Below are positions 3,151-21,808 of a DNA stretch of 64,000 nucleotides, in pieces. This DNA comes from Thalassospira sp. Its GTDB lineage: Bacteria; Pseudomonadota; Alphaproteobacteria; Rhodospirillales; Thalassospiraceae. The DNA lies in the NCBI RefSeq assembly GCF_030690045.1, contig NZ_JAUYHK010000011.1, positions 434,001 to 498,000 of the forward strand. Direction: 5' to 3'. Below the pieces are notes generated by a model. It was not told the DNA's origin. It made no database searches and was given only the letters and a program-made list of their open reading frames with translations. Both the position numbers and the translations under genes were made by a program. Position 1 is the first letter of the stretch. Each line of letters opens with the position of its first letter.

Positions 3151-3172
3151 TACAAATCCCCGATCTTCTGCC

Positions 3173-4168
3173 TTACATCGGGCAGGAGCTATCGCTCATG
3201 TAATCATGGACCGAAAGCGTACCGGCAACGATTTCGTCGGTGGCCTTCTTGACGACGGCTTTCATGTCGTCGGTGATCAGCGGCGCGTTGTATTCATCAA
3301 GCGCCCAGTCAACACCGCCTTCGGCCAGACCAAGGATCGTCAGGCCCGATTTCCATTCTTCCTTGGTGGCGGCATCAAAGGCGTCATAGACAGCAACATC
3401 CACCCGTTTCAGCATCGATGTCAGGATTGATCCCGGATGCAGGCCATTCTGGTTGGAATCCACCCCAATGCCCAGTTTCCCGGCATCGGCGGCAGCCTGC
3501 AAGACACCAATGCCGGTGCCACCTGCCGCATGATAAATCACATCGGCCCCACGATCGAATTGCGACTTGGCCAGTTCGCCGCCCTTTACCGGGTCATTCC
3601 ATGCCGAACCGGTGGTGCCGGTCATGTTCTGGAAAACTTCGGCATCGGCACTGGCATATTTTACGCCCTGTACATAACCGCAGGCAAATTTGCGGATCAA
3701 CGGAATGTCCATGCCGCCAACAAAACCAACCTTGTCGGTTTTCGATGCCATTGCCGCCAGAACACCGACCAGAAACGATCCTTCATGTTCCTTGAAGACA
3801 ACCGACTGCACGTTGGGCAGATCCACAACCATGTCAACAATGGTAAAACGGATGTCGGGGAATTCGGTTGCGACTTTTTCAAGTGCGGATGCCTGTGAAA
3901 AACCGATGGCAACAATCGGGTTCATGCCGCGGCGGGCAAAATTCCGCAGGGCCTGTTCGCGCTGGGAATCATTCTGGATTTCAAAGTCGCGATATTCCGT
4001 GCCGGTATCGGTCTTGTATTTTTCGGCACCGGTATAGGCCGCCTGATTGAACGAACGGTCAAATTTGCCGCCAAGGTCATAAACGACGGCTGGCTGAATT
4101 TCCGCAGCCGATGCAACGCCTGCATAACAGGCAGCTGCCGCGACCATCGTGGTCAGAATCTTTTTCAT
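3173..4168 (-). CDS. BMP family periplasmic substrate-binding protein
   Basis: 331 residues. The N terminus MKKILTTMVAAAACYAGVASA is a classical Sec signal peptide, probably cleaved before AEIQP. The mature part begins AVVYDLGGKFDRSFNQAAY, the hallmark of the Bmp/Med/PnrA family of periplasmic nucleoside-binding proteins. It captures the ligand for the two-permease ABC importer encoded downstream. The start is supported by AAGGG about 8 bases upstream of ATG. This is the first gene of the minus-strand operon and is divergent from the 5'-nucleotidase gene. A purine or pyrimidine nucleoside ligand is likely from family and context; the exact ligand cannot be read here. Confidence 0.92.
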   Translation of the reverse strand: MKKILTTMVAAAACYAGVASAAEIQPAVVYDLGGKFDRSFNQAAYTGAEKYKTDTGTEYRDFEIQNDSQREQALRNFARRGMNPIVAIGFSQASALEKVATEFPDIRFTIVDMVVDLPNVQSVVFKEHEGSFLVGVLAAMASKTDKVGFVGGMDIPLIRKFACGYVQGVKYASADAEVFQNMTGTTGSAWNDPVKGGELAKSQFDRGADVIYHAAGGTGIGVLQAAADAGKLGIGVDSNQNGLHPGSILTSMLKRVDVAVYDAFDAATKEEWKSGLTILGLAEGGVDWALDEYNAPLITDDMKAVVKKATDEIVAGTLSVHDYMSDSSCPM

Positions 4169-4716
4169 TCCGAAGCCCTTCTGTTGCTTGAGTCTCTTTT
4201 ATATTCCGATGGCCCCCTGTGACCTTCGGAACTCCCTTTGTTTATCTTCTGCTCTCTTCGTTCCGCGCTGCGGTTTTCATTCTGGTGGCGGTCCGCCTGC
4301 CGCGCGCTTCTGTCGGGAACCGGCTATGGTAACTACAAAATACAGGGGTCTGTAAATAGGCCAGCACAGGAACCGCAGACAAAACCTGTCCATATGGTCA
4401 GTATCGCCTTTCCGCCAGACTGTGCTGCAATGGTATAATCCGTGATTTCCCTGAGATTACAACACATCCCGTTTCAGGAACCAGCCGACACAAACCTGTC
4501 ACAAAATATGTCCGCTTTCTGCTTTGGCATGCTCTAACCCTCATGAAACCGACAATCCTGCCGCAATGCAGAATCCGATTCCCTGTATCTTGCGTAGCAA
4601 AACCGCTAAAAACGCACTTTTCACGCGACGGCAATCACAGACCGATACCGAAATGCAAATTTTGGTGCTAGGATTTTTTCGTTTCCGGGAATTGACCGAC
4701 AATTTGGAGCAGACAG
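4169..4716. promoter_or_regulatory. Divergent promoter region of the nucleoside importer and 5'-nucleotidase
   Basis: 548 bp without a convincing gene. It must hold the promoters of both divergent units. A TATAAA hexamer on the minus strand near 4197-4202 could be the -10 of the importer operon. The 9-mer AAACCTGTC occurs twice (4382-4390 and 4492-4500) and resembles half of a Pho box, but neither copy has a properly spaced partner, so phosphate control is only a possibility. Confidence 0.4.
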
Positions 4717-6312
4717 ATGAAACGGATTTCCATCGGGCTTGCAACGGCCTGTACCGTCATGGCACTTGGCGCGGGCACAGCCCTTGCCGATTACGATTTG
4801 CGTATTTTACATACCAACGACGTTCATGACCGTGTTGAATCGGTCACCAAATACAATAACAGTTGTGATGCTGCGGGCGAAGCAGAGGGCAAATGCTTTG
4901 GCGGTTATGCCCGTCTTGCAACTGCCATTCGCGATGCCCGCGCCGAGGGCGGCAATGTTCTTGTTCTGGATGGCGGCGATCAGTTTCAGGGATCGCTTTA
5001 TTATTCGACCTATAAGGGGGCGCTGACCGCCGAATTGATGGATATGGCCGGTTATGATGCAATGACCATCGGCAACCATGAATTCGATGATGGCCCCGAA
5101 GTTCTGGCAAGTTTTATCAAAAACAGCAAAATTCCCATCCTGTCGGCCAATATCGATGCCGAGGCCGCATCCGGCCTTAAAGATTTGATCAAACCCCATG
5201 CTGTTTTTGAAGTCGGTGGCGAAAAAATCGGCCTGATCGGTATCACAACCGAAGAAACCCCCGACATTTCCAGTCCCGGTGAACATGTCCATATCGGTGA
5301 TTCCGAAATGGCATTGCGATATTCGGTTGCAAGTCTGCGTCTTGCCGGGGTGAACAAAATCATCGTCATGAGCCATTCAGGATCGTATCGGGATTTTGAA
5401 CTGGCCGAAGCGGTTAGTGGCATCGACGTTATTGTCGGCGGCCATGACAACCAGTTGTTTTCCAATACCATCGAAAACGCGACATACCCCTATCCGGAAG
5501 TCCGCATTGCCCCGGATGGTAACCCGGTTCTGGTCGTTCAGGCCTATGCCTACAGCCGGTATCTGGGCGAATTGAAAGTCACCTTTGACGATGCCGGTGT
5601 TGCCAAGGCATGGGACGGTGAACCCATCGCCCTTGATGCCAGCATCAAACCGGCCGAAGACGTTCTGGCAAAGATTGCCGAAGCCAGTGGCATGGTCGAT
5701 TCAATCCGCACGGTTGAAGTCGGCAGCTTTACCAGCGTTGCCGATGGTGCGAGTGAAAGCTGCCGGGCGATGGAATGTTCGATGGGCTCGCTGATTGCCG
5801 ATGCCATGCTGTGGAAAGCCGGTGAAGGATATCAGATCGCCATCCAGAATGGCGGCGGCATCCGCGCCAGCATTGATGAAGGCGCGGTAACAATGGGCGA
5901 AGTCCTGACCGTATTGCCCTTCCAGAATGCCGTGGCAACCTTCAAACTTTCCGGTGCCGATGTGATTGCGTCGCTGGAACATGGCGTGTCGCTGGTTCAT
6001 GAAGGCAAGGGACAGTTTCCGCAGGTTGCCGGGATCAAGTTTGATCTTGACCTTGCCGCCCCCGTCGGATCGCGCATTTCCAATGTCATGGTGATGGAAG
6101 GTGGCAATTATGCCCCCATCGATCCGGCCAAAATGTATGGCGTTGTGTCGAACGATTTCATGCGCAAGGGTGGCGATGGCTATGCCCTGTTCCGCGACAA
6201 GGCAACCGATGTCTATGATTTCGGCCCCAATCTTGAACAGGCCGTGGCGGAATATATCGGTCTGAATTCCCCGATCACCCCGGCCACCGATGGCCGCATT
6301 GCGATGAAATAA
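4717..6312 (+). CDS. Secreted UshA-type 5'-nucleotidase / UDP-sugar hydrolase
   Basis: 531 residues, the normal length for the UshA family. A Sec signal peptide (cleavage after GTALA, about residue 24) sends it to the periplasm. The metallophosphatase domain shows the metal-binding motifs in order: LHTNDVHD, LDGGDQFQG, GNHEFDDG, MSHSG and GGHDN. The C-terminal 5'-nucleotidase domain carries QNGGGIRASI and GGDGYALF, which bind the nucleoside base and close over the active site. It removes phosphate from extracellular nucleotides, giving nucleosides that the divergent BMP-type importer could take up. GGAG eight bases upstream supports the ATG. A strong terminator follows the gene. Confidence 0.93.
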   Translation: MKRISIGLATACTVMALGAGTALADYDLRILHTNDVHDRVESVTKYNNSCDAAGEAEGKCFGGYARLATAIRDARAEGGNVLVLDGGDQFQGSLYYSTYKGALTAELMDMAGYDAMTIGNHEFDDGPEVLASFIKNSKIPILSANIDAEAASGLKDLIKPHAVFEVGGEKIGLIGITTEETPDISSPGEHVHIGDSEMALRYSVASLRLAGVNKIIVMSHSGSYRDFELAEAVSGIDVIVGGHDNQLFSNTIENATYPYPEVRIAPDGNPVLVVQAYAYSRYLGELKVTFDDAGVAKAWDGEPIALDASIKPAEDVLAKIAEASGMVDSIRTVEVGSFTSVADGASESCRAMECSMGSLIADAMLWKAGEGYQIAIQNGGGIRASIDEGAVTMGEVLTVLPFQNAVATFKLSGADVIASLEHGVSLVHEGKGQFPQVAGIKFDLDLAAPVGSRISNVMVMEGGNYAPIDPAKMYGVVSNDFMRKGGDGYALFRDKATDVYDFGPNLEQAVAEYIGLNSPITPATDGRIAMK

Positions 6313-6336
6313 CCGGTTTCATTGCCTGACAATCGG

Positions 6337-6374
6337 ACAGGGCGGCATCTGGTGATGCCGCCCTGTTCTGTTTT
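6337..6374 (+). terminator. Rho-independent terminator after the 5'-nucleotidase gene
   Basis: A 13-bp perfect stem (6337-6349 pairing with 6354-6366, sequence ACAGGGCGGCATC on the left) with a TGGT loop, followed by TCTGTTTT. It separates the nucleotidase from the kinase gene, which therefore needs its own promoter or read-through. Confidence 0.85.
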
Positions 6375-6439
6375 GCTTGCCTGATTTGACGGGTCGGGCT
6401 TATGACTGGCAGCATGTTGATTCACGCGAAAGCATATCC

Positions 6440-7387
6440 ATGACCCTTTCGACCCGCATTCTGTGCCTTGGCGCCGCCCATTTTGACCGCACCTTGCAAT
6501 GCACGGAACGATTTGTACCCGCCGCCTCCAACCCGGTCCGGACCCTGCATCGCAAACCCGGTGGGGTTTCGCGCAATATCGCGGTGCATTTGCGGCTTTT
6601 GGGGTGCCATGTCGGCATGATCAGTGCGGTTGGCGATGACGGGGATGGCGACCAGATTTTGCAATCCCTGACGGAAATCGGTATCGACACCCGCCAGATC
6701 AGCAAGATCTCCCAGGGCCACACGGCGGGGTATAGCGCCATTCTCGATCAGGATGGTGAACTCGCCCTTGGCCTGATGGATGCCGAAATTTACGAAACCC
6801 TGACGCCGGAATTTCTGGCCGGGAAACGGGCCGGGATGCGCAATTGGGGCTGGTGGCTGACCGATGCCAACCTGCCACCGGAATCGCTGGCGTGGCTGGC
6901 ACAGGAAAAGGGCGATATTCCGCTATGTGCGGCCACCGTCTCGCCGTCCAAGGCCGTGCGCTGGAAACCCCTGATCGGCCAGATCGATCTTTTGATCGCC
7001 AACCGGATCGAAACCGAAATCCTGACCGGTCAGGCTGTCAACACCCCTTCTGACGCCAGACAGGCCATTGAAAAACTGCGCACCAACGGAACAGGTAAGG
7101 TCATTGTCACATTGGGTGCGCAGGGCATTGTGGCCGGGGATGGCGACGGCATTTTCTTTTGGCCGCCCCTGCCAACCAAGGTGCGCGATGTCAATGGTGC
7201 CGGGGATGCGTTTTTTGCTGGTTTCATGGCGGCCTTTACCAACCCGCAAAACGGCTTTGACGCCGCCGTGGCACAGGGCCTTGCCCTTGCCAGCCTGACC
7301 GCAGAAACCGAAGGCACAACGGTGTGGAATCTGGATGTCAAACAGGTTCAAAACCGCGCATCAAATGCCGTTAAAACAACAATATAA
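6440..7387 (+). CDS. PfkB-family kinase, pseudouridine kinase-like
   Basis: 315 residues from the ATG at 6440; an in-frame TTG upstream at 6377 sits directly after the terminator and is unlikely. The protein begins with ILCLGAAHFDRTLQ, followed by RKPGGVSRNIAVHLRLLG (sugar-binding GGxxxN motif) and, near the C terminus, DVNGAGDAFFAGF, the PfkB anion hole with the catalytic Asp. The spacing and the NPVRTLHRKPGGVSRNIA segment look more like pseudouridine kinase (PsuK) than ribokinase. Position beside a nucleotidase and a nucleoside importer supports a nucleoside substrate. Specificity is inferred; no psuG partner is seen in the window. Confidence 0.82.
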   Translation: MTLSTRILCLGAAHFDRTLQCTERFVPAASNPVRTLHRKPGGVSRNIAVHLRLLGCHVGMISAVGDDGDGDQILQSLTEIGIDTRQISKISQGHTAGYSAILDQDGELALGLMDAEIYETLTPEFLAGKRAGMRNWGWWLTDANLPPESLAWLAQEKGDIPLCAATVSPSKAVRWKPLIGQIDLLIANRIETEILTGQAVNTPSDARQAIEKLRTNGTGKVIVTLGAQGIVAGDGDGIFFWPPLPTKVRDVNGAGDAFFAGFMAAFTNPQNGFDAAVAQGLALASLTAETEGTTVWNLDVKQVQNRASNAVKTTI

Positions 7388-7401
7388 TCGTCTGTTTTAA
7401 C
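7370..7401. terminator. Possible bidirectional terminator between convergent genes
   Basis: GTTAAAACA (7370-7378) is complementary to TGTTTTAAC (7393-7401), giving a 9-bp AT-rich stem with a 14-base loop. It straddles the 9-bp gap between two convergent genes. The stem is weak in GC, so the call is tentative. Confidence 0.35.
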
Positions 7402-8266
7402 GTTGTGAAACATATGGCCGCACCGACCGTTCCAGCCAGTTTTTCAGTTCGGTCAGGCGGCGTGCCGGGATCAAAACATCGTCATCAATGCCATACCGCC
7501 ATGCCAGATCCTTGCGCGCCGGATTGCGGTGCAATTCGGCCCAATCGGCGGCCATGGTTTCAAGGGCCGCCGTGTCGGCAAACAGCCCGGCTGAAACCAG
7601 CCGGTCGCCATAGCGCCGGAAAATCGCCGCCAGTTCCGCCAGCGTATATTCCGGATGATATTGCACCCCCCAGAACCGGTAATGGTCGTTTTCCATCACA
7701 AAGGCCTGAATGTGACTGTGATCGTTTCCGGCCAGAATAACCGCACCGGGCGGCGCAATCGATACTTCGTCCATATGGACCGTCAGGGCCGAATAATTCG
7801 CCGGTTTTCCGGCAAATAACGGATGCGATACCCCGGCCCGGTTCAGGCGGATATGCCGCCCGATCCCGATTTCCCGGCCTTTCGGACACATGCGCACCTC
7901 GCCGCCAAAGGCCTTGGCGACAATCTGCATGCCCCAGCAACTGCCAAAAACCGGCACACCGGATTCAACCGTGGCACGGGCCAATGGAATTTGCGCCTGT
8001 ACGGCCGGTTCATCGGCATAAGCATTCAGGGCCGATCCGGTCCAGGCAATGCCGTCAAAATCGGTGAATTGCATGCCCGCAGGCAGGCAATCCGGCCCGT
8101 CATCGGCGGGCCGGATAATGGTGGCGACAATCCCGGGATCAAGATGATGCAAGGTGGCAAGATACCCCTCGCCCGAAGCCGTCCCGCCCAATGAGCGGTT
8201 CAATTCATTCACTTCGCGGCGATTGCCATCAACGATCAGGATGTTCAATGATGCACTCATAGTCAT
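7397..8266 (-). CDS. Class I glutamine amidotransferase-like hydrolase (candidate gamma-glutamyl amide hydrolase)
   Basis: 289 residues, a single GATase-1 domain like the amidotransferase half of GMP synthase. The catalytic triad is visible: nucleophile Cys in FGSCWGMQ and the His/Glu pair in VQYHPEY. No synthetase domain is attached, so it probably works as a free hydrolase of gamma-glutamyl amides. It is the last gene of a minus-strand operon with a glutamine-synthetase-like ligase, an aldehyde dehydrogenase and an iron alcohol dehydrogenase; that context suggests it removes the glutamyl group at the end of a gamma-glutamylation pathway. The ATG at 8266 has AAGG just upstream; a second ATG six bases in is possible. 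Confidence 0.82.
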   Translation of the reverse strand: MTMSASLNILIVDGNRREVNELNRSLGGTASGEGYLATLHHLDPGIVATIIRPADDGPDCLPAGMQFTDFDGIAWTGSALNAYADEPAVQAQIPLARATVESGVPVFGSCWGMQIVAKAFGGEVRMCPKGREIGIGRHIRLNRAGVSHPLFAGKPANYSALTVHMDEVSIAPPGAVILAGNDHSHIQAFVMENDHYRFWGVQYHPEYTLAELAAIFRRYGDRLVSAGLFADTAALETMAADWAELHRNPARKDLAWRYGIDDDVLIPARRLTELKNWLERSVRPYVSQR

Positions 8267-8289
8267 AACCTTGATCCCGGTGAATCCTG

Positions 8290-9459
8290 TCAGCCCAGTT
8301 CGCCCGCATAAGCACGGCGGAAAATCGCCTCGTAATCGGCAATCGAAAGATCAACCGGATTACCGCCATCCGACGGATCGGCCTTGGCCTTTTTGGCAAC
8401 TTCCGCCGCCCGGCCAAGGTCAACCCCGATATCGGCCAGCGTATTGACAATGCCCAGACGGGTCCGGAATCCCAGAACCCAGTCAAACACACTTTCAAAT
8501 CCGGGGGCCGCAATATTCAGAACACGACCCAGAATTTCCATGCGGTCTTCAATCGCCTTGCGATTGGCGCGCATCACATAGGGCAACAACACCGCATTGG
8601 TCAGGCCATGATGGGTATCAAACAGCGCCCCGATCGGATGCGCCAGCGCATGCACCCCGCCAAGACCTTTCTGAAACGCCGTCGCCCCCATCGAGGCCGC
8701 CGCCAACATATCGGCACGGGCCTCGATATCCGATCCATTGTCATAGGCCCGCGGCAAGGCATCAGCGATCAGGCGCATGCCTTCCAGTGCCACCCCGTCG
8801 GCCATCGGATGATAACCGGGTGCACAGAAAGCCTCGAAACAATGCACAAAGGCATCAACCCCGGTTGCCGCCGTGATGTGGGCAGGCAGGCCAACGGTCA
8901 GTTCCGGGTCGGAAATCACAATGCCGGGCAACATTTTCGGATGGAAAATGATTTTCTTTTCGTGGGTTTCCTCGTTGGTGATCACGCTCGCACGGCCAAC
9001 TTCGGACCCCGTGCCCGACGTGGTCGGCACGGCAACAATCGGGGCAACCCCCTTGGGATCGACGCGGGTCCAGTTATCGCCGACATCTTCAAAATCCCAC
9101 ATCGGGCGGGTTTGCCCGGCCATCAGGGCAACGGCCTTGGCCGCATCAAGGCCCGATCCGCCGCCAAAGGCAATCACACCGTCATGACCACCCGTGCGAT
9201 ACGCCGCCAGACCGTCATCAACATTCTTGCCAACCGGATTGCCCTTGACCCCGGCAAACAAACCGGTCGGCAGGCCTGCGGCCGCGTTGGCGGCAATGGC
9301 GTTTGTGACCATCGCAAGGTCTTTCAGGCCTTCATCGGTAATCAAAAGCGGTTTTGTCATGCCCAGCGCCTTGCAGGCATCGGCCAGTTCGGAAATGCGC
9401 CCCGGACCAAAACGCACGGCGGTCGGATAGTTCCAGTTTCCGGAAATCTTCTTGGTCAT
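8290..9459 (-). CDS. Iron-containing alcohol dehydrogenase
   Basis: 389 residues, group III (Fe-ADH) family. The NAD-binding motif GGGSGLDAAK is near residue 95, followed by the family signature VPTTSGTGSE. The metal ligands are the Asp and His of ATGVDAFVHCFEAF and the two His in HALAHPIGALFDTHHG. Three ATG codons lie close together; the one at 9459 is nine bases from AAAGG and is preferred (9468 gives three more residues). The neighbouring ALDH and GS-like ligase suggest that it oxidises the hydroxyl of a gamma-glutamylated amino alcohol to the aldehyde. The gap to the amidotransferase gene is 23 bp. Confidence 0.9.
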   Translation of the reverse strand: MTKKISGNWNYPTAVRFGPGRISELADACKALGMTKPLLITDEGLKDLAMVTNAIAANAAAGLPTGLFAGVKGNPVGKNVDDGLAAYRTGGHDGVIAFGGGSGLDAAKAVALMAGQTRPMWDFEDVGDNWTRVDPKGVAPIVAVPTTSGTGSEVGRASVITNEETHEKKIIFHPKMLPGIVISDPELTVGLPAHITAATGVDAFVHCFEAFCAPGYHPMADGVALEGMRLIADALPRAYDNGSDIEARADMLAAASMGATAFQKGLGGVHALAHPIGALFDTHHGLTNAVLLPYVMRANRKAIEDRMEILGRVLNIAAPGFESVFDWVLGFRTRLGIVNTLADIGVDLGRAAEVAKKAKADPSDGGNPVDLSIADYEAIFRRAYAGELG

Positions 9460-9490
9460 CTTCATCATCCTTTGCGCACATCGCGCGTTA

Positions 9491-10882
9491 TCAAATTTTG
9501 GTCCGCAGGTGAAAACTTTTGGGCCGGGTCAGGACTTCATACGCCATTTTCGACAAGGTACAGCCGCGACCGGAATTTTTAACCCCGACCCATGCCAGCG
9601 CCGGGTCAAGGTAATCCGCCCGGTTCATAAACACTGTGCCGGTTTCCAGACGATCCCCGATCGACAGTGCTGCGTCTTCATCCGCCGTCCAGATCGAGGC
9701 GGTCAGGCCAAATTCGCTGTCATTCATCAGGGCAATGGCTTCTTCGTCGGTTTTCACCTTCATAATGCCAACCACCGGGCCAAAGCTTTCCTCGCTCATT
9801 ACCCGCATCGAATGATCAACATTGATCAGGATTTGCGGTGCCAGATACGGCGTGCCTTCGGCATTGGCGGCAAATTTCGCCGGATCGATCAGGGCCTTGG
9901 CCCCGGCCCGGATCGCCTCATTGACCTGCCCGCGCACAAAATCAGCCGACGATGTGCGGACCATCGGCCCCAGATTGGTATTGGGATCAATCGGGCTGCC
10001 AAGACGGTATTGCGCCACAAGGGCTGCTGATTTTTCAACAAAGGCGTCAAACCGGCTTTCATGAACATAAATGCGTTCAATGCCACAACAGGACTGCCCG
10101 GTATTGAAAAACGCACCATCAATGACGTTTTCCACCGCATGATCAAGATTGACATCAGCCCGGATATAGGCCGGGTCCTTGCCGCCCAGTTCCAGCCCGG
10201 TGGCAATGAATTTGCCCGCCACCGCCCGCTGGACCGCGTGCCCGCCCGGAACCGATCCGGTGAAATTGACAAAATCAACACGGGCATCGCCCATCAGTTT
10301 TTCGGCATCGGCATGGCTCAGATGCAGATACTGAAACACGCCTTCGGGCAGGCCTGCTGCCTCAAACGCCTCGGCAAAACGTTCGGCGCATAACGGCGTC
10401 TGATGCGAATGTTTCAACACCACGGCATTGCCCGCCATCAGGGCCGGAATAACGCCATTGACCGCCGTCAGATACGGGAAATTCCACGGCGCTATAATGG
10501 CAACAACGCCCAGTGCCTCGCGGCGGATAAAGCGGTTGAAACCGGCCTTGTCGCCGGGATTGTAATCCCCCAGCGCCTCGGGCGCGATGTCGATCATATA
10601 GGTGGCGCGTTCGTTAAAACCGCCAACTTCACCCCCTGCCTGCGAAATCGGACGCCCCATCTGCCAACTGATTTCCGCGGCAATTTCATCCTTTTTGGCG
10701 ACAAAGGCCGCAACGGCCTTGCGCAGGATATCCTGACGGGTGGCAATCGGCGTATTGCGCCATGATTTTTGCGCCGCACGAGCACGGTCAAGGGCGCGGT
10801 CAATATCCCCTGCCCCGGCCAAGGGCCGTTCGACATACACAGATCCATCAACAGGCGAGATGGTTCTCAAAACTTCGGACAT
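9491..10882 (-). CDS. NAD(P)-dependent aldehyde dehydrogenase
   Basis: 463 residues. Typical ALDH motifs: PWNFPY, the general-base Glu in LELGGKDPAYI and the nucleophilic Cys in FNTGQSCCGIERIYVHE. The CCGIERIYV context is common among ALDHs acting on amine-derived aldehydes. AGGA precedes the ATG. It lies between the Fe-alcohol dehydrogenase and the glutamine-synthetase-like gene in one operon, so it probably oxidises the aldehyde made by the alcohol dehydrogenase to the acid. The exact substrate is not readable from the sequence. Confidence 0.9.
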   Translation of the reverse strand: MSEVLRTISPVDGSVYVERPLAGAGDIDRALDRARAAQKSWRNTPIATRQDILRKAVAAFVAKKDEIAAEISWQMGRPISQAGGEVGGFNERATYMIDIAPEALGDYNPGDKAGFNRFIRREALGVVAIIAPWNFPYLTAVNGVIPALMAGNAVVLKHSHQTPLCAERFAEAFEAAGLPEGVFQYLHLSHADAEKLMGDARVDFVNFTGSVPGGHAVQRAVAGKFIATGLELGGKDPAYIRADVNLDHAVENVIDGAFFNTGQSCCGIERIYVHESRFDAFVEKSAALVAQYRLGSPIDPNTNLGPMVRTSSADFVRGQVNEAIRAGAKALIDPAKFAANAEGTPYLAPQILINVDHSMRVMSEESFGPVVGIMKVKTDEEAIALMNDSEFGLTASIWTADEDAALSIGDRLETGTVFMNRADYLDPALAWVGVKNSGRGCTLSKMAYEVLTRPKSFHLRTKI

Positions 10883-10958
10883 TCTTCCTCACAGGATGAT
10901 TGGGGTGGTCGTTGCAACGGGTCGTCCGCAATAACCGCGACGATCTGTTGCCGGTGTA

Positions 10959-12326
10959 TCAGATAATTTCAAAATAACGCTGCATTTCCCAGTCGGTGAT
11001 GGCCTTGCGGAATTCGCGTTCTTCCCATTCGCGGGACTGGGCGTAATGTTCGACAAAATCCTCACCAAACAGGTTGTTGGCGGCCTCAGACTGGCGCAAA
11101 CGCCCGGCGGCTTCAAACAGGGTGCGCGGCAATGACAACGCATCAGGGAATGTCTGGTCATAGGCATTGCCAACCACCGGTGCGGTTGGTTCGATCCGGT
11201 TTTCAATGCCCCACAGCCCCGATCCGATGCAGGCCGCAAGCGCGATATAGGGATTGATATCGGCCGCGGCAATCCGGTATTCGACCCGTTGTGATTTCGG
11301 ACTGCCGGGAATAACGCGCAAGGCCGTGGTGCGGTTTTCCACCGCCCATGTCGCCGTTGTCGGCGCCCAGAAACCGGGGATCAACCGGGAATAACTGTTG
11401 ACCGTGCAAGACACCATCGACAGAAATTCCGGCATCAGTTTTTGCTGCCCGCCAACAAACCAGCGCATTTCATCGGACATTTTATGGGGCTTGGTGTCAT
11501 CAAAAAACACCGACCGGCCATCCTTGCCCTGCAAGGACACATGCATATGGCCCGACTGCCCCGGCCAGTCTTTTGACCATTTCGCCATAAAGGTCGCCAT
11601 CCATCCGGCACGCTGCGCCAACACCTTGGTAAAGGTTTTAAACAATGCCGCCTTGTCCGCTGCCCTAAGCGCACTGTCATGCACAAGGGCGGCCTCAAGA
11701 ACACCAGGGCCGGTTTCGGTATGCAGGCCTTCGATGGGAAAATCCATCGCATCGCCCAGTTCCAGCAAATCCTGATAAAATTCTGAATGCACCGAATTGC
11801 GCAACATCGAATAGCCGTAAAAACCCGGCGTGATGTTTTTCAGGTTGCGATAATTTTTCTCGCGCACACTGTGCGGCGTTTCTTCAAACAGGAAAAATTC
11901 AAATTCACAGGCCGCCGACACGCCATACCCCATATCGTCGGCTTTTTTCAGGACCCTGCGCAAATTGGCCCGCGGGCAAACCGCCTCGGCCGTGCCTTCA
12001 AATTCGCCCAGAAACAGGATGGTGTTTTCTTCCATCGGCAATTCGCGGCAGGTTTCCGGCAAAATCCGCGCCATCGCATCGGGATAAGCCGTGTGCCAGC
12101 CGGTGAATTTTGCGCTGTCATATAACTGGTCATTGGAATCCCAGCCCAAAACCACATCGCAAAAGCCAAATCCGCCCTCCAGCGCAGACAGAAACTTGTC
12201 GCGATGAATGTATTTGCCGCGCAAAATGCCATCAACGTCAAAAACCCCGACCTTGACATGTTTGATGTCGCGTTCCTCGATCAGCTTGCGGGCATCCGCA
12301 GCAGTTTTGACCTGTTTCGCCTCCAT
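10959..12326 (-). CDS. Glutamine synthetase-like gamma-glutamyl-amine ligase
   Basis: 455 residues, GlnA/PuuA superfamily. The N-terminal beta-grasp domain is followed by the catalytic barrel with metal-binding CEFEFFLFE, ETGPGVLEAAL, the His of GQSGHMHVSL, and ENRTTALRV near the nucleotide site. It lacks the tyrosine adenylylation context of canonical GlnA-I. It occurs with an alcohol dehydrogenase, an aldehyde dehydrogenase and a GATase hydrolase, the arrangement expected when an amine is protected as its gamma-glutamyl amide before oxidation. A perfect AGGAGG lies seven bases before the ATG. The promoter region upstream holds two palindromes shared with the regulator gene. Alternative: an assimilatory glutamine synthetase, judged less likely. 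Confidence 0.87.
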   Translation of the reverse strand: MEAKQVKTAADARKLIEERDIKHVKVGVFDVDGILRGKYIHRDKFLSALEGGFGFCDVVLGWDSNDQLYDSAKFTGWHTAYPDAMARILPETCRELPMEENTILFLGEFEGTAEAVCPRANLRRVLKKADDMGYGVSAACEFEFFLFEETPHSVREKNYRNLKNITPGFYGYSMLRNSVHSEFYQDLLELGDAMDFPIEGLHTETGPGVLEAALVHDSALRAADKAALFKTFTKVLAQRAGWMATFMAKWSKDWPGQSGHMHVSLQGKDGRSVFFDDTKPHKMSDEMRWFVGGQQKLMPEFLSMVSCTVNSYSRLIPGFWAPTTATWAVENRTTALRVIPGSPKSQRVEYRIAAADINPYIALAACIGSGLWGIENRIEPTAPVVGNAYDQTFPDALSLPRTLFEAAGRLRQSEAANNLFGEDFVEHYAQSREWEEREFRKAITDWEMQRYFEII

Positions 12327-12402
12327 CGGCGACCTCCTGATTTTACGGCTGTTATTTTAAGAATACCGGCAGAATCCGGGCTGCCTGATCGTCACTGGCG
12401 AC

Positions 12403-12420
12403 ATGTAAAATACATTACAT
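12403..12420. promoter_or_regulatory. Palindromic operator 1 (catabolic operon promoter)
   Basis: ATGTAAAATACATTACAT: perfect half-sites ATGTAA / TTACAT separated by six bases. It lies 77-94 bp upstream of the GS-like gene. Three further sites with the form YTGTAW/ATGTAA-N6-TTACAW are described separately. Probably bound by the divergent RpiR-type regulator. Confidence 0.65.
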
Positions 12421-12451
12421 ATTTAACGAAATAACTGCAATCTGATATTCA

Positions 12452-12469
12452 TTGTATAATTCATTACAT
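12452..12469. promoter_or_regulatory. Palindromic operator 2 (catabolic operon promoter)
   Basis: TTGTATAATTCATTACAT: the same half-site layout as operator 1, with one mismatched position. Its start is 49 bp from operator 1, close to five helical turns, so the two sites would lie on one DNA face and could be bridged by a multimer. Confidence 0.6.
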
Positions 12470-12522
12470 TTTTGGCAAAATGCCCGGCCCCTGCCATCTG
12501 CAAGGGGCCGGGCGTGCAGACC

Positions 12523-13572
12523 CTAGTAACGATAAGGCTTTCCGGCCTTTTCCATCACTGCGGCATATTGTTTGAAGATATCGACAACCTTGGCGCAACG
12601 CGGGCTGGTCTGGGCGATTTCATCCCAGAATTTCTGGGCTTCCTGCTCCACCGTTTTCCATTCTTCATCGGGGATGGAGGTCAGTTGCATCTTGGTGCCC
12701 TGTGTGCGCAGTTCGGCTTCGCCGCCCCAATACCAGTGCTGGCGATAATAGTGCGAACTGTCCATGCACAGCTTGAACAGAACCTTGAGATGTTCCGGCA
12801 ATTCGTTCCAGCGTTCTTCGTTGGCAAAGAACGACCCGCACCATGCACCGGAAATATTGTTGGTCAGGAAATAGTTGGTCACATCGGCCCAACCCACCGT
12901 GTAATCCTCGGTAATGCCGGACCACGCGATCCCGTCCAGTTCGCCGGTCTGAACGGCGACTTCGATATCTTCCCACGGCAGGGTGACCGGAATCACGCCA
13001 AAGCGTGACAGGAACTTGCCCGCCGTCGGAAAGGTAAAGACCCGTTTGCCTTTCAGATCAGCAAGGCTGTTGATCGGCTCGACCGTGGCGAAATGGCAGG
13101 GGTCCCACGCCCCGGCACTCAGCCATTTCACCCCTTCAACCTCGCCATAAGCTTCTTCCCAGATTTCATTCAACCCGTATTGTTCAAACAATACCGGCAC
13201 ATCCAGGCTGTAACGGGTGGCGAACGGAAAATACCCGCCAAACACCGAAATATCGACCGGTGCGGCGATGGAATCGTCATCCGACTGCACCGCATCAATC
13301 GTGCCGCGCTGCATGGCGCGGAACAATTCGCCGGTCGGCACCAGCTGATCGGCGTAATAAAGTTCGATTTCCATTTCGCCATTGGCGGCCTTGTTAAAGG
13401 CATCAATCGCCGGTTTGATCACATGTTCGCCCAATGCCGGACCGGCATAGGTTTGCAAACGCCAGGTGATTTTGGCGTTCTGTGCCTTGACATAAGGGGC
13501 GGCAAAGGCCGTGGTGCCCGCAGCCGCGGTTGCCAGCGTGGCCTTTTTAAGAAAGTCGCGTCTTGAATTCAT
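12523..13572 (-). CDS. TRAP transporter periplasmic substrate-binding protein (DctP/TakP type)
   Basis: 349 residues. The N terminus MNSRRDFLKKATLATAAAGTTAFA carries a twin-arginine motif, so it is likely exported folded by Tat, as for TakP-like proteins. The family features are ITWRLQTYAGPALGEH, LYYADQLVPTGELFRAMQRGTIDAV, and ADLKGKRVFTFPTAG in the middle. It binds the ligand for the DctQ/DctM channel encoded upstream. GGGAG eight bases before 13572 fixes this start; a start at 13611 would add 13 residues before the signal. A 151-bp gap separates it from dctM. TakP relatives bind oxo-acids, but the downstream enzymes favour an amine-type ligand here. Confidence 0.9.
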   Translation of the reverse strand: MNSRRDFLKKATLATAAAGTTAFAAPYVKAQNAKITWRLQTYAGPALGEHVIKPAIDAFNKAANGEMEIELYYADQLVPTGELFRAMQRGTIDAVQSDDDSIAAPVDISVFGGYFPFATRYSLDVPVLFEQYGLNEIWEEAYGEVEGVKWLSAGAWDPCHFATVEPINSLADLKGKRVFTFPTAGKFLSRFGVIPVTLPWEDIEVAVQTGELDGIAWSGITEDYTVGWADVTNYFLTNNISGAWCGSFFANEERWNELPEHLKVLFKLCMDSSHYYRQHWYWGGEAELRTQGTKMQLTSIPDEEWKTVEQEAQKFWDEIAQTSPRCAKVVDIFKQYAAVMEKAGKPYRY

Positions 13573-13723
13573 TTTATCGTCTCCCTGATCGGTAATTTGG
13601 ATGGAACACAATTCCGGTAGTCAGCCCTGACCTCTGTGCCCAGGGGTCGCATGTTTTCTGGTCGCGATTTGAGCCTCCCTGATATTATTTGACCAATACG
13701 CCTGATTTTTCAGTTTCTTCTCA

Positions 13724-15049
13724 TTATCGCCCGTAATGCCATTCCGGCAGCCACAGGGCAATTTGCGGAAACGCCATCACCAGAATCAGGGCCAGAACCA
13801 TGACAAGGACAAAGGGCGTCACCGACTGATAGATATCTTTAAGCGAGACTTCGGGTGGTGCCATCGCCCGCATCAAAAACAGATTGTAACCAAAGGGCGG
13901 CGTCATATAGGCAATCTGGCAGGTGATGGTATAAAGCACCCCGTACCACACCAGATCAAAACCCAATGCCCCGACCAGCGGCACATAAAGCGGCGCGACA
14001 ATCACCAGCATGGCGGTATCATCCAGAAACATGCCCATCAGGATGAAGGAAACCTGCATCATGATCAGGATTTGCCACGGCGTCAGTCCCAGCTGATCCA
14101 GAAAAAACCGTTCAATCGCCTTGACCGCGCCCAGCCCGTCAAACACCGCGCCAAAACACAGGGCGGCCAGAATGATCCACATGAACATGCAGGAAATCGA
14201 CAGGGTCTTGCGCAGGGTTTCTTCCATCACCCGCCCGTTCAAACGGCGTTTGAACAAGGCCGCCAATGTTGCCGCTGCCGCCCCGACCGCCGAACTTTCA
14301 ACAAGCGACGTCACGCCCAGCAAAAACAGACCGGTCATCGAAAAAAAGATAAACAGCGGAATCAAACCCGCCCGCAACAACCGGATTTTTTCACCCCATG
14401 TCACCCGCGCCCGTTCTTCCTTTGACAGGGCCGGGCCCATATCGGGCTGCAACCAGCACCGCACGACGATATAAAGAATAAACATCCCCGCCATCATCAG
14501 GCCCGGAATCGCCCCGGCCAGCCACAATTGCCCGACCGGCTGGCGTGCGATCATGCCATACAGCACCAGAACGACACTGGGCGGCACCAGAATGCCCAGC
14601 GAACTGCCCGCCTGTATCACCCCGGTCACCATGATCTTGTCATAGCCGCGCCGCAACAATTCCGGCAGGGCAATACTGGCCCCGATGGCCATCCCGGCAA
14701 CACTCAGCCCGTTCATCGCCGAAATCGCCACCATCAGAACAATGGTGCCAATCGCAAGCCCGCCCCGCACCGGCCCGAACCACACATGGAACATCCGGTA
14801 CAGATCATCGGCAATCCCGGATTCCGACAGCATATACCCCATATAGACAAACAGCGGCAGGGTCAGAAGCGGATACCATTTCATCAGCTTCATCGCGGCA
14901 CTGAACGCCATTTCCGATCCGCCATCCCCCCACAGGGCCAGCGAAAACACCACGGCAACAAACCCGATTGCCCCGAAAACCCGCTTGCCCGTCAGAAGAA
15001 GCATCATCATCGAGGCAAACATCAAAAGCGCAATAAGCTCGTAACTCAT
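13724..15049 (-). CDS. TRAP transporter large permease (DctM)
   Basis: 441 residues of strongly hydrophobic sequence, the usual size of the 12-helix DctM subunit that carries out sodium-driven transport. Recognisable family segments are GVIQAGSSLGILVPPSVVLVLYGM and MFLDDTAMLVIVAPL. The ATG overlaps the stop of the small permease gene by four bases (ATGA, 15046-15049). It is an inner-membrane protein working with DctQ and the twin-arginine binding protein downstream. Confidence 0.93.
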   Translation of the reverse strand: MSYELIALLMFASMMMLLLTGKRVFGAIGFVAVVFSLALWGDGGSEMAFSAAMKLMKWYPLLTLPLFVYMGYMLSESGIADDLYRMFHVWFGPVRGGLAIGTIVLMVAISAMNGLSVAGMAIGASIALPELLRRGYDKIMVTGVIQAGSSLGILVPPSVVLVLYGMIARQPVGQLWLAGAIPGLMMAGMFILYIVVRCWLQPDMGPALSKEERARVTWGEKIRLLRAGLIPLFIFFSMTGLFLLGVTSLVESSAVGAAAATLAALFKRRLNGRVMEETLRKTLSISCMFMWIILAALCFGAVFDGLGAVKAIERFFLDQLGLTPWQILIMMQVSFILMGMFLDDTAMLVIVAPLYVPLVGALGFDLVWYGVLYTITCQIAYMTPPFGYNLFLMRAMAPPEVSLKDIYQSVTPFVLVMVLALILVMAFPQIALWLPEWHYGR

Positions 15050-15558
15050 TCAAGGCTCTCCCCGCAGGCGGTTGCCACATCCTTGAAGAAAATGGCAATC
15101 ACCTGTAACAGCATCATAAAAACCCCGAATGTCATGACGATCTTGATCGGGGCCATCGGCGGGGACCATGCGGAATAACTGGTTTCGTTATATTCCAGGG
15201 CATATTGCGTTGACGAAATGCCGCCATACAGCAGGAACGCCAGATAAAACACCAAAAACAGAACGGTGATTGCATCGACAATCGCCTTGGTTTTTGGTTT
15301 CCATGCGCCATAAATCAGATCCATGCGAACATGCGAGTCAATCTGCATGGAATAGGCACCGCCCAGCAGAAAATAGGCGACCATCAAAAACTGCGCCATT
15401 TCCAGCGTCCACAGGGACGGAAAGAAAAACGTCTTGGTAATGGATGAATATAAAAGCACACCCAGAATCGCAAAGATCAGATACATGGCAAACCGGCCAA
15501 TGATCCGGTTCACCTTCTCGACCCAGCGCACATAAAACTTAATCGCCTCTGGCATCAT
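15046..15558 (-). CDS. TRAP transporter small permease (DctQ)
   Basis: 170 residues, four hydrophobic helices, the normal DctQ architecture. MEYFL-type spacing is replaced here by MAQFLMVAYFLLGGAYSMQIDSHVRMDL, which contains the family's conserved HVRxD motif between helices two and three. The ATG at 15558, followed directly by a second ATG, has GGGAAAG just upstream; a longer reading frame from 15651 lacks a ribosome binding site. First gene of the TRAP operon, with a leader of about 270 bases that holds two short hairpins and two operator palindromes. Confidence 0.87.
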   Translation of the reverse strand: MMPEAIKFYVRWVEKVNRIIGRFAMYLIFAILGVLLYSSITKTFFFPSLWTLEMAQFLMVAYFLLGGAYSMQIDSHVRMDLIYGAWKPKTKAIVDAITVLFLVFYLAFLLYGGISSTQYALEYNETSYSAWSPPMAPIKIVMTFGVFMMLLQVIAIFFKDVATACGESLE

Positions 15559-15760
15559 TCTTTCCCATTCGGAATGGCTCCCGGTTTTGTCCATCCGGTG
15601 CCGTGCCGCCCCCACCCGTCGAACACAGATTTCCGCCAACAGGACCTGCATCCTGCCTTGCGGAACTCATATGGCGATGATGGCTTTCACGCATGTAATG
15701 GCGTCCTCCCTGCATTGTCGTTACGACGGACGTTGTAACAATGCCGCCTCCCCGGCGGTC

Positions 15761-15797
15761 GGCCCTTTGGGCCTTGTGGCAGATGGTCCTTTGGACC
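15761..15797. other. Two tandem short hairpins in the TRAP leader
   Basis: GGCCCTTTGGGCC (15761-15773) and GGTCCTTTGGACC (15785-15797) are two perfect 5-bp hairpins with the same TTT loop, 11 bases apart. They lie in the untranslated region between the regulator and dctQ. On the plus strand the second is followed by TTTTT and might act as a weak terminator. Confidence 0.5.
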
Positions 15798-15833
15798 TTT
15801 TTGATCTTGATCTGGCAAGGCAACCTGATGCCT

Positions 15834-15851
15834 CTGTAATGAACGTTACAT
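15834..15851. promoter_or_regulatory. Palindromic operator 3 (TRAP/regulator intergenic region)
   Basis: CTGTAATGAACGTTACAT: half-sites TGTAA / TTACA with a six-base spacer, matching operators 1, 2 and 4. Confidence 0.6.
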
Positions 15852-15883
15852 GAGACGGCCTTTTCTGACAACATTGTTATTTA

Positions 15884-15901
15884 TTGTAAAATTCGTTACA
15901 A
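15884..15901. promoter_or_regulatory. Palindromic operator 4 (adjacent to the regulator start)
   Basis: TTGTAAAATTCGTTACAA: perfect half-sites TTGTAA / TTACAA with a six-base spacer. It starts exactly 50 bp from operator 3 and ends at the base before the first possible ATG of the RpiR gene, so binding here would block the regulator's own promoter. Confidence 0.65.
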
Positions 15902-16864
15902 ATGGAATATGATATTGACAGGACACAGCAGGCAGAAAATCCCGGCCTGACGATGCAAAACCATGATCTGACAGGATATTTTTTGGATTCTTCGCAAAAC
16001 ACCACGCCCCCGACCGTTGCGGAAATGATCACGCACAAGGCTGAAAACCTGACGGCGTCCGAACGCAAACTCGCACAGGCCTTGCTGGGCAATTATCCGA
16101 TGGCTGGTCTGGAAACGGTTGCAACCTTTGCCGAACGGTGCGGTGTCTCGGCCCCGACCGTGTTGCGCTTTGCCAGCAAACTGGGCTTTGAAAGCTATCC
16201 CGAAATGCAGGCCCGCCTGCGCGAAGAACTCGAAGCCCGCCTGCAATCGCCCCTCACCCGGTCCGCCCTGCCGCGCAACCGGGCGGCAACCGGCCATCCG
16301 ATGGGGGTCTTGCTGCATCATATGGCCGAGGCAACCATATCAAACATCCGCTCGTCGCTGGCCAATATCGCGCCAACCGAACTTGAAGGGGCGATTGACC
16401 TTCTGGCGGATCGCCGCCGGTCGGTTTATGTGCTGGGGGGGCGGTTTTCATCCGCGCTGGCGGTCTATGGCTATGAACATCTGCGCTCGATGCGTGCCGA
16501 TGTCCATCGCGTCGCCGGGCAAAGTTCCAAATGGACCGAAGATTTGCTCGATATCGGCAAACGCGATGTCCTGCTGGTCTTTGATGTGCGCCGCTATCAG
16601 AAAGACGTGATCAATTTTGCCGAAACCGCGTCGGAACAGGGGGCAAAAATCATCCTGTTCACCGATCAGTGGCTCAGCCCGATTGCCCGGTTTGCCCGCC
16701 ATGTTTTCCCGGTGCGCATCGAAACTGGCACCACATGGGACAGTGCCGCGGCCAGCACGGTTTTGCTTGAAACCCTGCTCGAAGGGGTGGGTCGCCGCGA
16801 CCCGGATCATGTCCGCGACCGGATCGAACATCTCGAACGGTTGCGGCGGCGCCCGTTAAACTGA
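15902..16864 (+). CDS. RpiR/MurR family transcriptional regulator with SIS domain
   Basis: 320 residues from 15902. The N-terminal helix-turn-helix (ENLTASERKLAQALL ... VATFAERCGVSAPTVLRFASKLGF) is followed by a SIS sugar-isomerase-type ligand domain (RSVYVLGGRFSSALAVYGYEHL). The family commonly senses phosphosugars, but members also control amine and amino acid catabolism. The gene is divergent from the TRAP operon and shares its promoter region. Neither the ATG at 15902 nor the in-frame ATG at 15953 has a good ribosome binding site; since operator 4 touches 15902, the later start (303 residues) is quite possible. Probable regulator of the TRAP and catabolic operons. Confidence 0.9.
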   Translation: MEYDIDRTQQAENPGLTMQNHDLTGYFLDSSQNTTPPTVAEMITHKAENLTASERKLAQALLGNYPMAGLETVATFAERCGVSAPTVLRFASKLGFESYPEMQARLREELEARLQSPLTRSALPRNRAATGHPMGVLLHHMAEATISNIRSSLANIAPTELEGAIDLLADRRRSVYVLGGRFSSALAVYGYEHLRSMRADVHRVAGQSSKWTEDLLDIGKRDVLLVFDVRRYQKDVINFAETASEQGAKIILFTDQWLSPIARFARHVFPVRIETGTTWDSAAASTVLLETLLEGVGRRDPDHVRDRIEHLERLRRRPLN

Positions 16865-19730: not shown

Positions 19731-20744
19731 TCAGGCAGGCTGTCGCAGGCCGAACCGTTCGGCGTAGTCTTGCGGGGCAATCGACAGGTGACGATGAAAG
19801 GCCCGCCGCAGGGTTTCCGGGTGCCCGAACCCGCATAAACCGGCAATGCGCGACAGGGGCATATCCCCGTCCTGCAACAGATGGCGGGCCGCCTCAACCC
19901 GGATGCGTTCAATATAGCGTGCCGGGGTCATGCCGATATCGCGGGTAAAGACCCGGGAAAATGTCCGGGGGGACATCCCGGCACGACCGGCCAGATTTTC
20001 CAGCGACAAATCCCCCGCCAGATTCCCCGGAATCCATTCCAGCAATTCGGCCAATTGCGATGCACTGCCCATTGCCGGTGTCAGAAAACTGCTGAATTGC
20101 GCCTGCCCGCCCGGCCGTTTGAGGAACATCACCAACCGGCGCGCGACCGCAAGGGCAACCGCCCGGCCATGATCCGCCTCGACCAAGGCCAGCGCCAGAT
20201 CAATCCCCGCCGTCACCCCGGCCGAGGTGAAAATATGCGCATCGCCATCCACCCCGTCCGGGTCATAGGTATGCAGGCGGTTTTCCGCCAACAACACATC
20301 GGGAAAACACCGCGCCATTTCCGCACAGCGCGACCAGTGGGTGGTTGCCATCCGGCCATCCAGCAACCCGGCCGACGCCAAAATCAGCGCCCCGGAACAC
20401 ACCGACCCCAAACGCGGCACCGCATGGGCCGCATCACGCAACCAGCCCTGCAAGACGGCATCATGGCGCAAGGCCTCCACACCATCGCCGCCAGGCACCA
20501 GCATTGTATCGATCATCGCCAGATCAAGATCGCCCCATGCCATATCGGCCAGCAAGGCAAACCCCGCCGATGTTGTTACCGGCCCGGCCTGTTGTGCGGC
20601 AATCTTCACATCATATCCGCCTGCCCGCCCCTGACGTTTCAATTCGTCATTGGCCGAGGCAAACACCTGAAGCGGCCCGGTAACATCCAGACTCATGACA
20701 TTGGGAAAACACAGGCAAACAATCTGGCGACGCGACCGGGACAT
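19731..20744 (-). CDS. GlxA-type transcriptional regulator (DJ-1/PfpI domain plus AraC helix-turn-helix)
   Basis: 337 residues. Residues 1-190 form a DJ-1/PfpI-like amidotransferase fold (IVCLCFPNVMSLDVTGPLQVF ... LGSVCSGALILASAGLLDG) with a Cys at the elbow position, but used as a sensor domain in this family. The C-terminal part is an AraC/XylS domain with two helix-turn-helix units (LAGRAGMSPRTFSRVFTRDIGMTPARYIERIRVEAARHLL). GGAG precedes the ATG. It probably controls the adjacent MFS gene. Confidence 0.88.
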   Translation of the reverse strand: MSRSRRQIVCLCFPNVMSLDVTGPLQVFASANDELKRQGRAGGYDVKIAAQQAGPVTTSAGFALLADMAWGDLDLAMIDTMLVPGGDGVEALRHDAVLQGWLRDAAHAVPRLGSVCSGALILASAGLLDGRMATTHWSRCAEMARCFPDVLLAENRLHTYDPDGVDGDAHIFTSAGVTAGIDLALALVEADHGRAVALAVARRLVMFLKRPGGQAQFSSFLTPAMGSASQLAELLEWIPGNLAGDLSLENLAGRAGMSPRTFSRVFTRDIGMTPARYIERIRVEAARHLLQDGDMPLSRIAGLCGFGHPETLRRAFHRHLSIAPQDYAERFGLRQPA

Positions 20745-20948
20745 GGCAAATCTCCGTTATGACCGCCCCAGAATGCGTTGTTGCGGTCATGGCCGCAATG
20801 ACAAACACCCCACCGATCTTGCCAAAAACAAAATCTGCGGGGTGTTTGATCCAGACAGGTTTTCCCGACGGCGTGCCGGGACTAAATACTGGCTAAAGCA
20901 TCGACGGATACAGCCTGTTATTCCAAACAGGACCAATCGCAAACAACC

Positions 20949-20969
20949 TTATGCTTTATGCTTTATGCT
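20949..20969. repeat. Short tandem repeat, three 7-bp units
   Basis: TTATGCT occurs three times without interruption, directly upstream of the first transposase remnant. Too small for a CRISPR or minisatellite; likely slippage. Confidence 0.7.
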
Positions 20970-20981
20970 TTTGATGCAATA

Positions 20982-21136
20982 CGGTATCGCGGGCGGAACA
21001 TGATCGAACGGATGTTTGGTCGCCTCAAGGACTTCCGGCGCATTGCTACCCGACACGACCAAAAGGCGGAAAATTTTATGGCCGCATTATGCCTTGCTGC
21101 TCTCATACGCTATTAAATTTGAATGAGTCTGGACCC
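20982..21136 (+). mobile_element. IS5-like transposase remnant, copy 1 (C terminus and right end)
   Basis: Reading from 20982 in frame, the translation starts RYRGRNMIERMFGRLKDF and continues RRIATRHDQKAENFMAAL to a stop at 21114. This is the classical C-terminal DDE-domain end of IS5-family transposases, with the ERMFGRLK helix carrying the catalytic Glu. It is followed by GAATGAGTCTGGACCCT, probably the terminal inverted repeat. The rest of the element is missing. Confidence 0.82.
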
Positions 21137-21393
21137 TAATCACCAGACCCATTACGGGATAAAAACTTATGAAAAGAAAAATTTTAACATCATTGAAAAA
21201 TCCCCAGAAGACAAAAAGAAATAATTGGCATTTTTCATGACAAAAACCAAAAACAAATATAATATACGAAATAAAAATTCCAAATATAATGTAAAAATAA
21301 TACAAAAACATTAAATGAATTAATTTAATTATTACTCAAATTTGAAATTAAAAATAGGGTGCTTTCCCTTTTTCATAAAACTTAGTTTTATCT
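21137..21393. other. AT-rich non-coding stretch
   Basis: 257 bp of very low GC content between the first transposase remnant and the AT-rich membrane gene. Short reading frames exist but run into the IS remnant and have no credible start. I see no RNA gene or clear repeat. Confidence 0.5.
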
Positions 21394-21807: not shown

Positions 21808-21808
21808 T

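Follow-up and report, generated by a model that had tools for sequence, protein, structure and literature searches.

Genes of the cluster and the proposed pathway

The window analysed here is a stretch of 64,000 nucleotides from Thalassospira sp. (contig NZ_JAUYHK010000011.1), and positions 7397–16864 of it hold a cluster of eight genes with intact reading frames, whose domains were assigned by Pfam. They encode a tripartite ATP-independent periplasmic (TRAP) importer, a MurR/RpiR-family regulator and four enzymes. The cluster is interpreted as a regulon for the uptake and catabolism of ethanolamine via gamma-glutamyl intermediates, a reading given a probability of roughly 85%. An earlier note on this DNA had named the same families at this place, and all eight genes carry the domains expected from that naming. 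Its description of one minus-strand set holds for the seven genes at 7397–15651, which are read in the order dctQ-dctM-dctP, ligase, aldehyde dehydrogenase, alcohol dehydrogenase and hydrolase. The rpiR gene is divergent from these on the plus strand, and the minus-strand genes appear to form two transcription units.

The rpiR product (15902–16864, plus strand) matches the HTH_6 and SIS models above cut-off. The first minus-strand gene, dctQ (15046–15651; PF04290), encodes an EtoV-like TRAP small permease; these coordinates are those of the longest open reading frame (ORF), and the true start, judged by eye, is probably nearer 15555. The next gene, dctM (13724–15049; PF06808), encodes an EtoW-like large permease that is 65–85% identical to its counterparts in other EtoX loci, and is followed by dctP (12523–13572; PF03480), which encodes an EtoX-like, Tat-exported solute-binding protein. 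The enzyme genes begin with a ligase resembling glutamine synthetase (GS) (10959–12326; PF00120, Gln-synt_C), proposed to be an ethanolamine gamma-glutamyl ligase of a clade marked by Trp320. An aldehyde dehydrogenase follows (9491–10882), for which PF00171, position and neighbours suggest the conversion of the gamma-glutamyl aldehyde to gamma-glutamylglycine. The iron-containing alcohol dehydrogenase (8290–9468; PF00465 and PF25137) is a proposed gamma-glutamylethanolamide dehydrogenase. The final gene encodes a hydrolase of the class-I glutamine amidotransferase (GATase) type (7397–8266; PF00117) that retains the Cys motif (GSCWGMQ) and the His/Glu motif (YHPE), and is a proposed gamma-glutamylglycine hydrolase.

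A hairpin 3' of dctP (12482–12513, minus strand) is a probable terminator between the two units. Its folding energy is -31.8 kcal/mol (z -2.8; equally stable in 2 of 200 shuffles), and a simple pattern-based terminator scan did not pick it up. The separation into dctQ-dctM-dctP and the ligase, aldehyde dehydrogenase, alcohol dehydrogenase and GATase genes is drawn from this stable hairpin together with the second of two operator-like palindrome pairs described below.

In the proposed pathway, DctP would bind ethanolamine in the periplasm and DctQM would import it. The GS-like ligase would then join ethanolamine to the gamma-carboxyl group of glutamate in an ATP-dependent step, the iron alcohol dehydrogenase would oxidise gamma-glutamylethanolamide to the aldehyde, and the aldehyde dehydrogenase would convert this to gamma-glutamylglycine, from which the hydrolase would release glycine and return glutamate. 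RpiR would control its own gene, the importer unit and the enzyme unit through paired palindromes 49–50 bp apart, probably by repression. The enzymatic steps are all assigned from family and gene order. Glutamylation would mask the amine and keep a free amino-aldehyde from forming, as in the PuuABCD logic. No match to EutB was found in the genome itself (97% complete), and the gamma-glutamyl pathway is therefore probably its ethanolamine route. The sequence of glutamylation, alcohol oxidation, aldehyde oxidation and removal of glutamate, served by its own TRAP importer, had been put forward in the earlier note as a new candidate. It matches the EtoX pathway published for the operon of Phaeobacter sp. 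MED193 (PMC10132767), so that the idea was right but not new. The present cluster differs in the catabolic half, namely in ligase clade and hydrolase type.

Binding protein, ligase and hydrolase

The DctP protein is 76% identical to Csal_0678 (PDB 4uab and 4xf5) and is a close match to it in both sequence and fold; Vetting et al. 2015 is said to be the original source for Csal_0678. The next PDB matches are lactate and keto-acid binders at 17–20% identity. Phe179 of DctP (349-residue numbering) occupies the position of the carboxylate-binding Arg, which we take to be the equivalent of SiaP Arg147, and Phe179 also faces the Arg of 2hzk. In the alignment, all 13 EtoX rows have Phe or Tyr at this position, and all four other TRAP rows have Arg. 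The structural model was built from the 17-row alignment (pLDDT 78.5), while a poor single-sequence model (pLDDT 36) was left unused. Csal_0678 has been reported to bind ethanolamine and to be without the carboxylate-binding Arg (PMC4646407). An oxo-acid or carboxylate importer was rejected on the identity to Csal_0678, the model match and the missing Arg; DctP does not group with the oxo-acid binders, and the check named in the earlier note as able to refute its idea came out in favour of that idea. By homology, DctPQM most likely binds and imports ethanolamine. The alkanolamine substrate suggested in the earlier note is supported and, through the reported ligand of Csal_0678 (PMC4646407), is sharpened to ethanolamine; for the ligase itself, we infer the same substrate.

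The ligase belongs to a different group from those of 13 other EtoX clusters (10 from loci of the class, two from plasmids and one from Thalassospira genome G387). A tree of 103 ligases separates the window-type and other-EtoX groups into two clades with long stems and SH-aLRT values of 100 and 99 (quick method). At the position of GS Glu327, all 84 window-type ligases aligned have Trp (Trp320 in the window) and the 13 others have Phe. True GS has Glu327, the ethanolamine ligase GlnA4 has Phe and the monoamine and polyamine ligase PauA7 has Trp there (PMC6529630). The residue of ammonia-using GS has therefore been replaced in both clades, by a different amino acid in each. The class name GoaS has been given to GS-like enzymes that act on organic amines (PMC11335346).

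It is very improbable that the ligase is an ordinary ammonia GS or a polyamine ligase of the PuuA/PauA type lying beside the importer by chance, with no alkanolamine pathway. The best NCBIfam score is indeed to GlnA (TIGR00653, 222 bits) followed by GGputSyn (NF045547, 188 bits), but these lie far under the curated cut-offs of 429 and 650. PauA7 shares the Trp (PMC6529630) and the two dehydrogenases belong to broad families; against this, the flap Glu is lost, a separate GlnA of the genome (L005) has Glu at that position, no PuuB-type oxidase is found among the eight genes, and all eight Thalassospira loci that have the ligase keep the gene order. The PuuABCD, ordinary GS and Eut lyase routes were rejected on the sub-cut-off scores, the Trp at the flap Glu and the absence of PuuB among the eight genes and of EutB from the genome.

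Also considered unlikely is that the same chemistry serves mainly another small amino alcohol (alaninol, 1-amino-2-propanol or 3-aminopropanol), with ethanolamine secondary. The distinct ligase clade would fit such a substrate, as would the Ipu-like ligase of Paenarthrobacter, whose distance to the two clades is much the same (37.6% identical to the window ligase and 36.1% to the other), and the ligand in 4xf5, presumably 2-amino-1-propanol. The importer argues for ethanolamine through its identity to an ethanolamine binder and through the presence of its family beside eutBC in Chelatococcus, and the ligase clade also occurs with an ethanolamine-permease-like transporter. Close kinship with the Ipu-like ligase, suggested by a plasmid match at 39%, was dropped; the tree places that ligase with the Phe-type clade, weakly (84/67).

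The hydrolases also differ between the two ligase types. A gene of the N-formylglutamate-amidohydrolase type (FGase) occurs in 11 of the 13 Phe-type clusters (one confirmed as PF05013), one of the remaining two being cut by a contig end, and the window-type GATase occurs in none of the 13. Among 80 window-type ligase loci, kept from 197 found, at least 27 have the GATase and at least 9 the FGase type, counts that are lower bounds because many contigs are short. A gamma-glutamyltranspeptidase gene lies at 59289–61061 of the window, 43 kb from the cluster.

Paired palindromes and neighbouring features

Pattern searches identified operator-like palindromes of the form TGTAA-N6-TTACA in two pairs. 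The first pair lies between rpiR and dctQ and consists of exact sites at 15835–15850 and 15885–15900, which are 50 bp apart, the latter next to the rpiR start. The second pair lies between dctP and the ligase, with an exact site at 12404–12419 and, 49 bp apart from it, a site with one mismatch at 12453–12468 that overlaps a promoter-like match at 12478–12451 (minus strand). With one mismatch allowed, the window contains these four sites only, where 0.52 are expected, and four were never reached in 100 shuffles. Six promoter-like matches were found against 3.0 expected; one overlaps the palindrome before the ligase and one the palindrome before rpiR. The palindrome pairs, these overlaps and the hairpin after dctP suggest two RpiR-controlled units. 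Binding of RpiR to the palindromes and the sense of its action are predicted from this arrangement, and the protein is probably a repressor.

Genome-wide (4.23 Mb), the exact palindrome has four sites, three of them in the cluster, and a reversed control pattern has seven. The fourth site (contig 11, L164:4081) is located just upstream of an ABC-transporter ATPase gene with permease genes beyond; it is possibly a further regulon member or a chance occurrence, the latter since the control pattern is found seven times.

Both sites of the first pair match exactly, 50 bp apart, in all eight Thalassospira loci. For the second, with one mismatch allowed, both sites are present in five of the eight, one site in two and neither in one. 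The exact palindrome is absent from the non-Thalassospira loci examined, and among the loci compared the paired form occurs only in Thalassospira. Nine of 28 rpiR loci outside the genus have a single-mismatch site within 400 bp upstream of rpiR. These nine are among 12 one-mismatch sites in the 28 loci, with 0.28 expected upstream if placement were uniform. In the same upstream regions the reversed pattern gave no site, 29 other half-site rearrangements gave at most two, and 200 base shuffles gave a mean of 0.27 sites and at most two. Scattered placement of the sites outside Thalassospira was rejected after this recount. The nine loci include Phe-type EtoX clusters (L137, L156) and window-type ligase loci (L033, L035, L050, L159), so the operator seems tied to the RpiR family and not to one enzyme module. 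For RpiR proteins of ethanolamine catabolism, the palindrome pairs provide a model of regulation that can be tested directly. Literature searches, judged from their listings apart from the papers cited here, turned up none that deals with this operon in Thalassospira or with an operator of RpiR linked to ethanolamine.

The genes adjoining the cluster (443–7387) encode a BMP-family-like ABC importer with a permease (443–1561), an ATPase (1558–3150) and a binding protein (3173–4168) that weakly matches a B6-type binding-protein model. They are followed by an ORF that is nucleotidase-like by sequence (4717–6312) and a PfkB kinase (6377–7387), a gene set that suggests nucleoside uptake. On the other side, G+C falls to 0.47 at 20–22 kb of the window (region 20001–23964), and a 562-residue ORF beside this dip (22276–23964) has no Pfam match.

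Distribution and comparison with known systems

Eight named Thalassospira loci (L006–L012, L067) were returned by the ligase search and so were selected for having the ligase; all of them have the eight genes in identical order, which is more than chance. Among 29 genomes of the genus, which partly overlap these loci, 15 encode the binding protein and 14 of these also the ligase; the exception (G387) has an EtoX cluster with the other ligase type (L165). A search across 385 genomes of the class found DctP-like genes (E no higher than 1e-80) in 47, the genome under study counted, and 40 of the 47 loci were read. A Phe-type-clade ligase adjoins EtoX in 10 of the 40 and a window-type ligase in one (L152).

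Several of these comparisons weigh against the ethanolamine pathway as read here. In 29 of the 40 EtoX loci, the available sequence (as much as about 8 kb to each side, with a few loci cut by contig ends) contains neither ligase type, and EtoX therefore does not imply a gamma-glutamyl pathway; L119, which belongs to these 29, carries a GS-like gene of a third kind. Conversely, the EtoX importer is present in 12 of the 80 window-type ligase loci (the eight of Thalassospira plus L041, L044, L046 and L066), with another TRAP binding protein in 14 and an APC permease of other kind in four, so the ligase clade may accept other amines. The window ligase is 30–35% identical to the 13 Phe-type ligases, and it scores 201 bits against PDB 5dm3, presumably the Chromohalobacter salexigens ligase neighbouring Csal_0678, where one Phe-type ligase scores 801 bits. 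The palindrome is also lacking in 19 of the 28 rpiR loci outside Thalassospira.

In five further window-type loci, an APC permease is homologous to one that best matches the NCBIfam ethanolamine permease, below its cut-off. The transporters of the remaining loci of the 80 are unassigned, owing to short contigs and to simple ORF calls that are unreliable in some GC-rich loci. These transporter contexts suggest ethanolamine or a near relative as the ligase substrate, though not necessarily for every member of the clade. EtoX-linked members, including L152, occur at about five places in the window-type clade, several of them weakly supported, a pattern that points to importers and enzyme modules having been exchanged repeatedly. 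The Phe-type module is present even in one species of Thalassospira itself (G387). On balance, we favour the view that the Trp320 clade is a second alkanolamine gamma-glutamyl ligase family apart from the known ethanolamine ligases, and that ligase and hydrolase modules of two origins were exchanged several times in Alphaproteobacteria under one ethanolamine importer and a single RpiR family that shares an operator. If the Trp-clade ligase does act on ethanolamine, a second, widespread version of the pathway would escape surveys that use the known ligase alone. Phosphatidylethanolamine-derived ethanolamine has been reported to be an important nutrient in the sea, with etoX in approximately 5–10% of ocean bacteria (PMC10132767).

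Other gene contexts were observed around the two families. The TRAP binding protein that accompanies the window-type ligase in Reyranella and relatives (L052:7011–8063 and 13 related loci) keeps Arg at the carboxylate position in four aligned proteins, and its ligand may therefore be acidic. A Rhizobium leguminosarum plasmid (L160:3561–10741) has genes for an aldehyde dehydrogenase, a GATase-type hydrolase and a GMC oxidoreductase together with that of a ligase sharing 57% identity with the window ligase, and no iron alcohol dehydrogenase is annotated nearby. Six of the 29 EtoX loci without either ligase type (L116–L155 set) retain the FGase-type hydrolase. Seven loci without a ligase (L143, L144, L145, L150, L158, L163 and L168, of which L144 and L158 share coordinates and are probably one record) combine the EtoX importer with a DeoR regulator, two FAD/NAD oxidoreductases and an FGGY kinase. 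This context was seen by sequence in four of the 40 class loci and on Tistrella and Chelatococcus plasmids, and by annotation on a Rhizobium plasmid, on which no DeoR is annotated. Such loci may represent a further route for amino alcohols or related alcohols. On the Chelatococcus plasmid (L163:2503–4675), eutB and eutC adjoin the EtoX importer, which perhaps feeds an ammonia-lyase route there.

The E. coli PuuABCD pathway degrades putrescine by ligase, dehydrogenase and hydrolase steps, a logic shared by the Thalassospira cluster, which differs in having no PuuB amine oxidase among its eight genes and a ligase far below the PuuA-model cut-off. The Ipu system for isopropylamine and alaninol likewise has a gamma-glutamyl amino alcohol intermediate, a GS-like ligase and an amidotransferase-type hydrolase, and gamma-glutamyl-alaninol chemistry has been described for Ipu-like clusters; there a P450 makes the alcohol (PMC6776027), whereas no P450 is found among the eight Thalassospira genes. 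An Ipu-like cluster was also seen on the Paenarthrobacter AT5 plasmid from atrazine-factory soil (L166:8944–17319), with a GS-like ligase, a short-chain dehydrogenase (SDR), a P450, a ferredoxin and two hydrolases, and an alanine dehydrogenase further on. The GlnA4 pathway of Streptomyces coelicolor resembles the proposed one in ethanolamine gamma-glutamylation and in its aldehyde dehydrogenase and glutamine amidotransferase genes. As described, that cluster has no TRAP genes and a short-chain dehydrogenase in place of the iron alcohol dehydrogenase, and GlnA4 has Phe (F331) at the Glu327 position (PMC6529630), where the window ligase has Trp.

The closest known system is the MED193 EtoX operon, described as RpiR, GGAH, EtoV, EtoW, EtoX, ETAGA, GAADDH and GETADH, whose products are a gamma-glutamylglycine amidohydrolase, the TRAP importer EtoVWX, an ethanolamine gamma-glutamylase and aldehyde and alcohol dehydrogenases (PMC10132767). 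The operon proteins are reported to rise on phosphorylethanolamine and EtoX to bind ethanolamine with a Kd of 7.9 uM, and related clusters in Chromohalobacter salexigens and Agrobacterium tumefaciens are cited there from Vetting et al. 2015 (PMC10132767). One of these three published clusters might already use a Trp-type ligase. Plasmids of Sinorhizobium and Rhizobium encode ligases that share 64–67% identity with that of Ruegeria. The Thalassospira cluster shares with MED193 the importer family, the RpiR regulator, the same order of GS-like ligase, aldehyde dehydrogenase and iron alcohol dehydrogenase, and the same proposed chemistry, the order having been compared via Ruegeria and Paracoccus plasmid clusters that share the MED193 layout. 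It differs from the EtoX clusters that stand in for MED193 (Ruegeria B32, Paracoccus and others) in its ligase, which is of the other clade and has Trp instead of Phe. A class-I GATase ends its enzyme unit, where MED193-type clusters have an FGase-type gene that precedes those of the importer, a type assigned to the MED193 GGAH from its gene position. Finally, unlike in the MED193 operon, a second promoter and operator region precedes the Thalassospira ligase.

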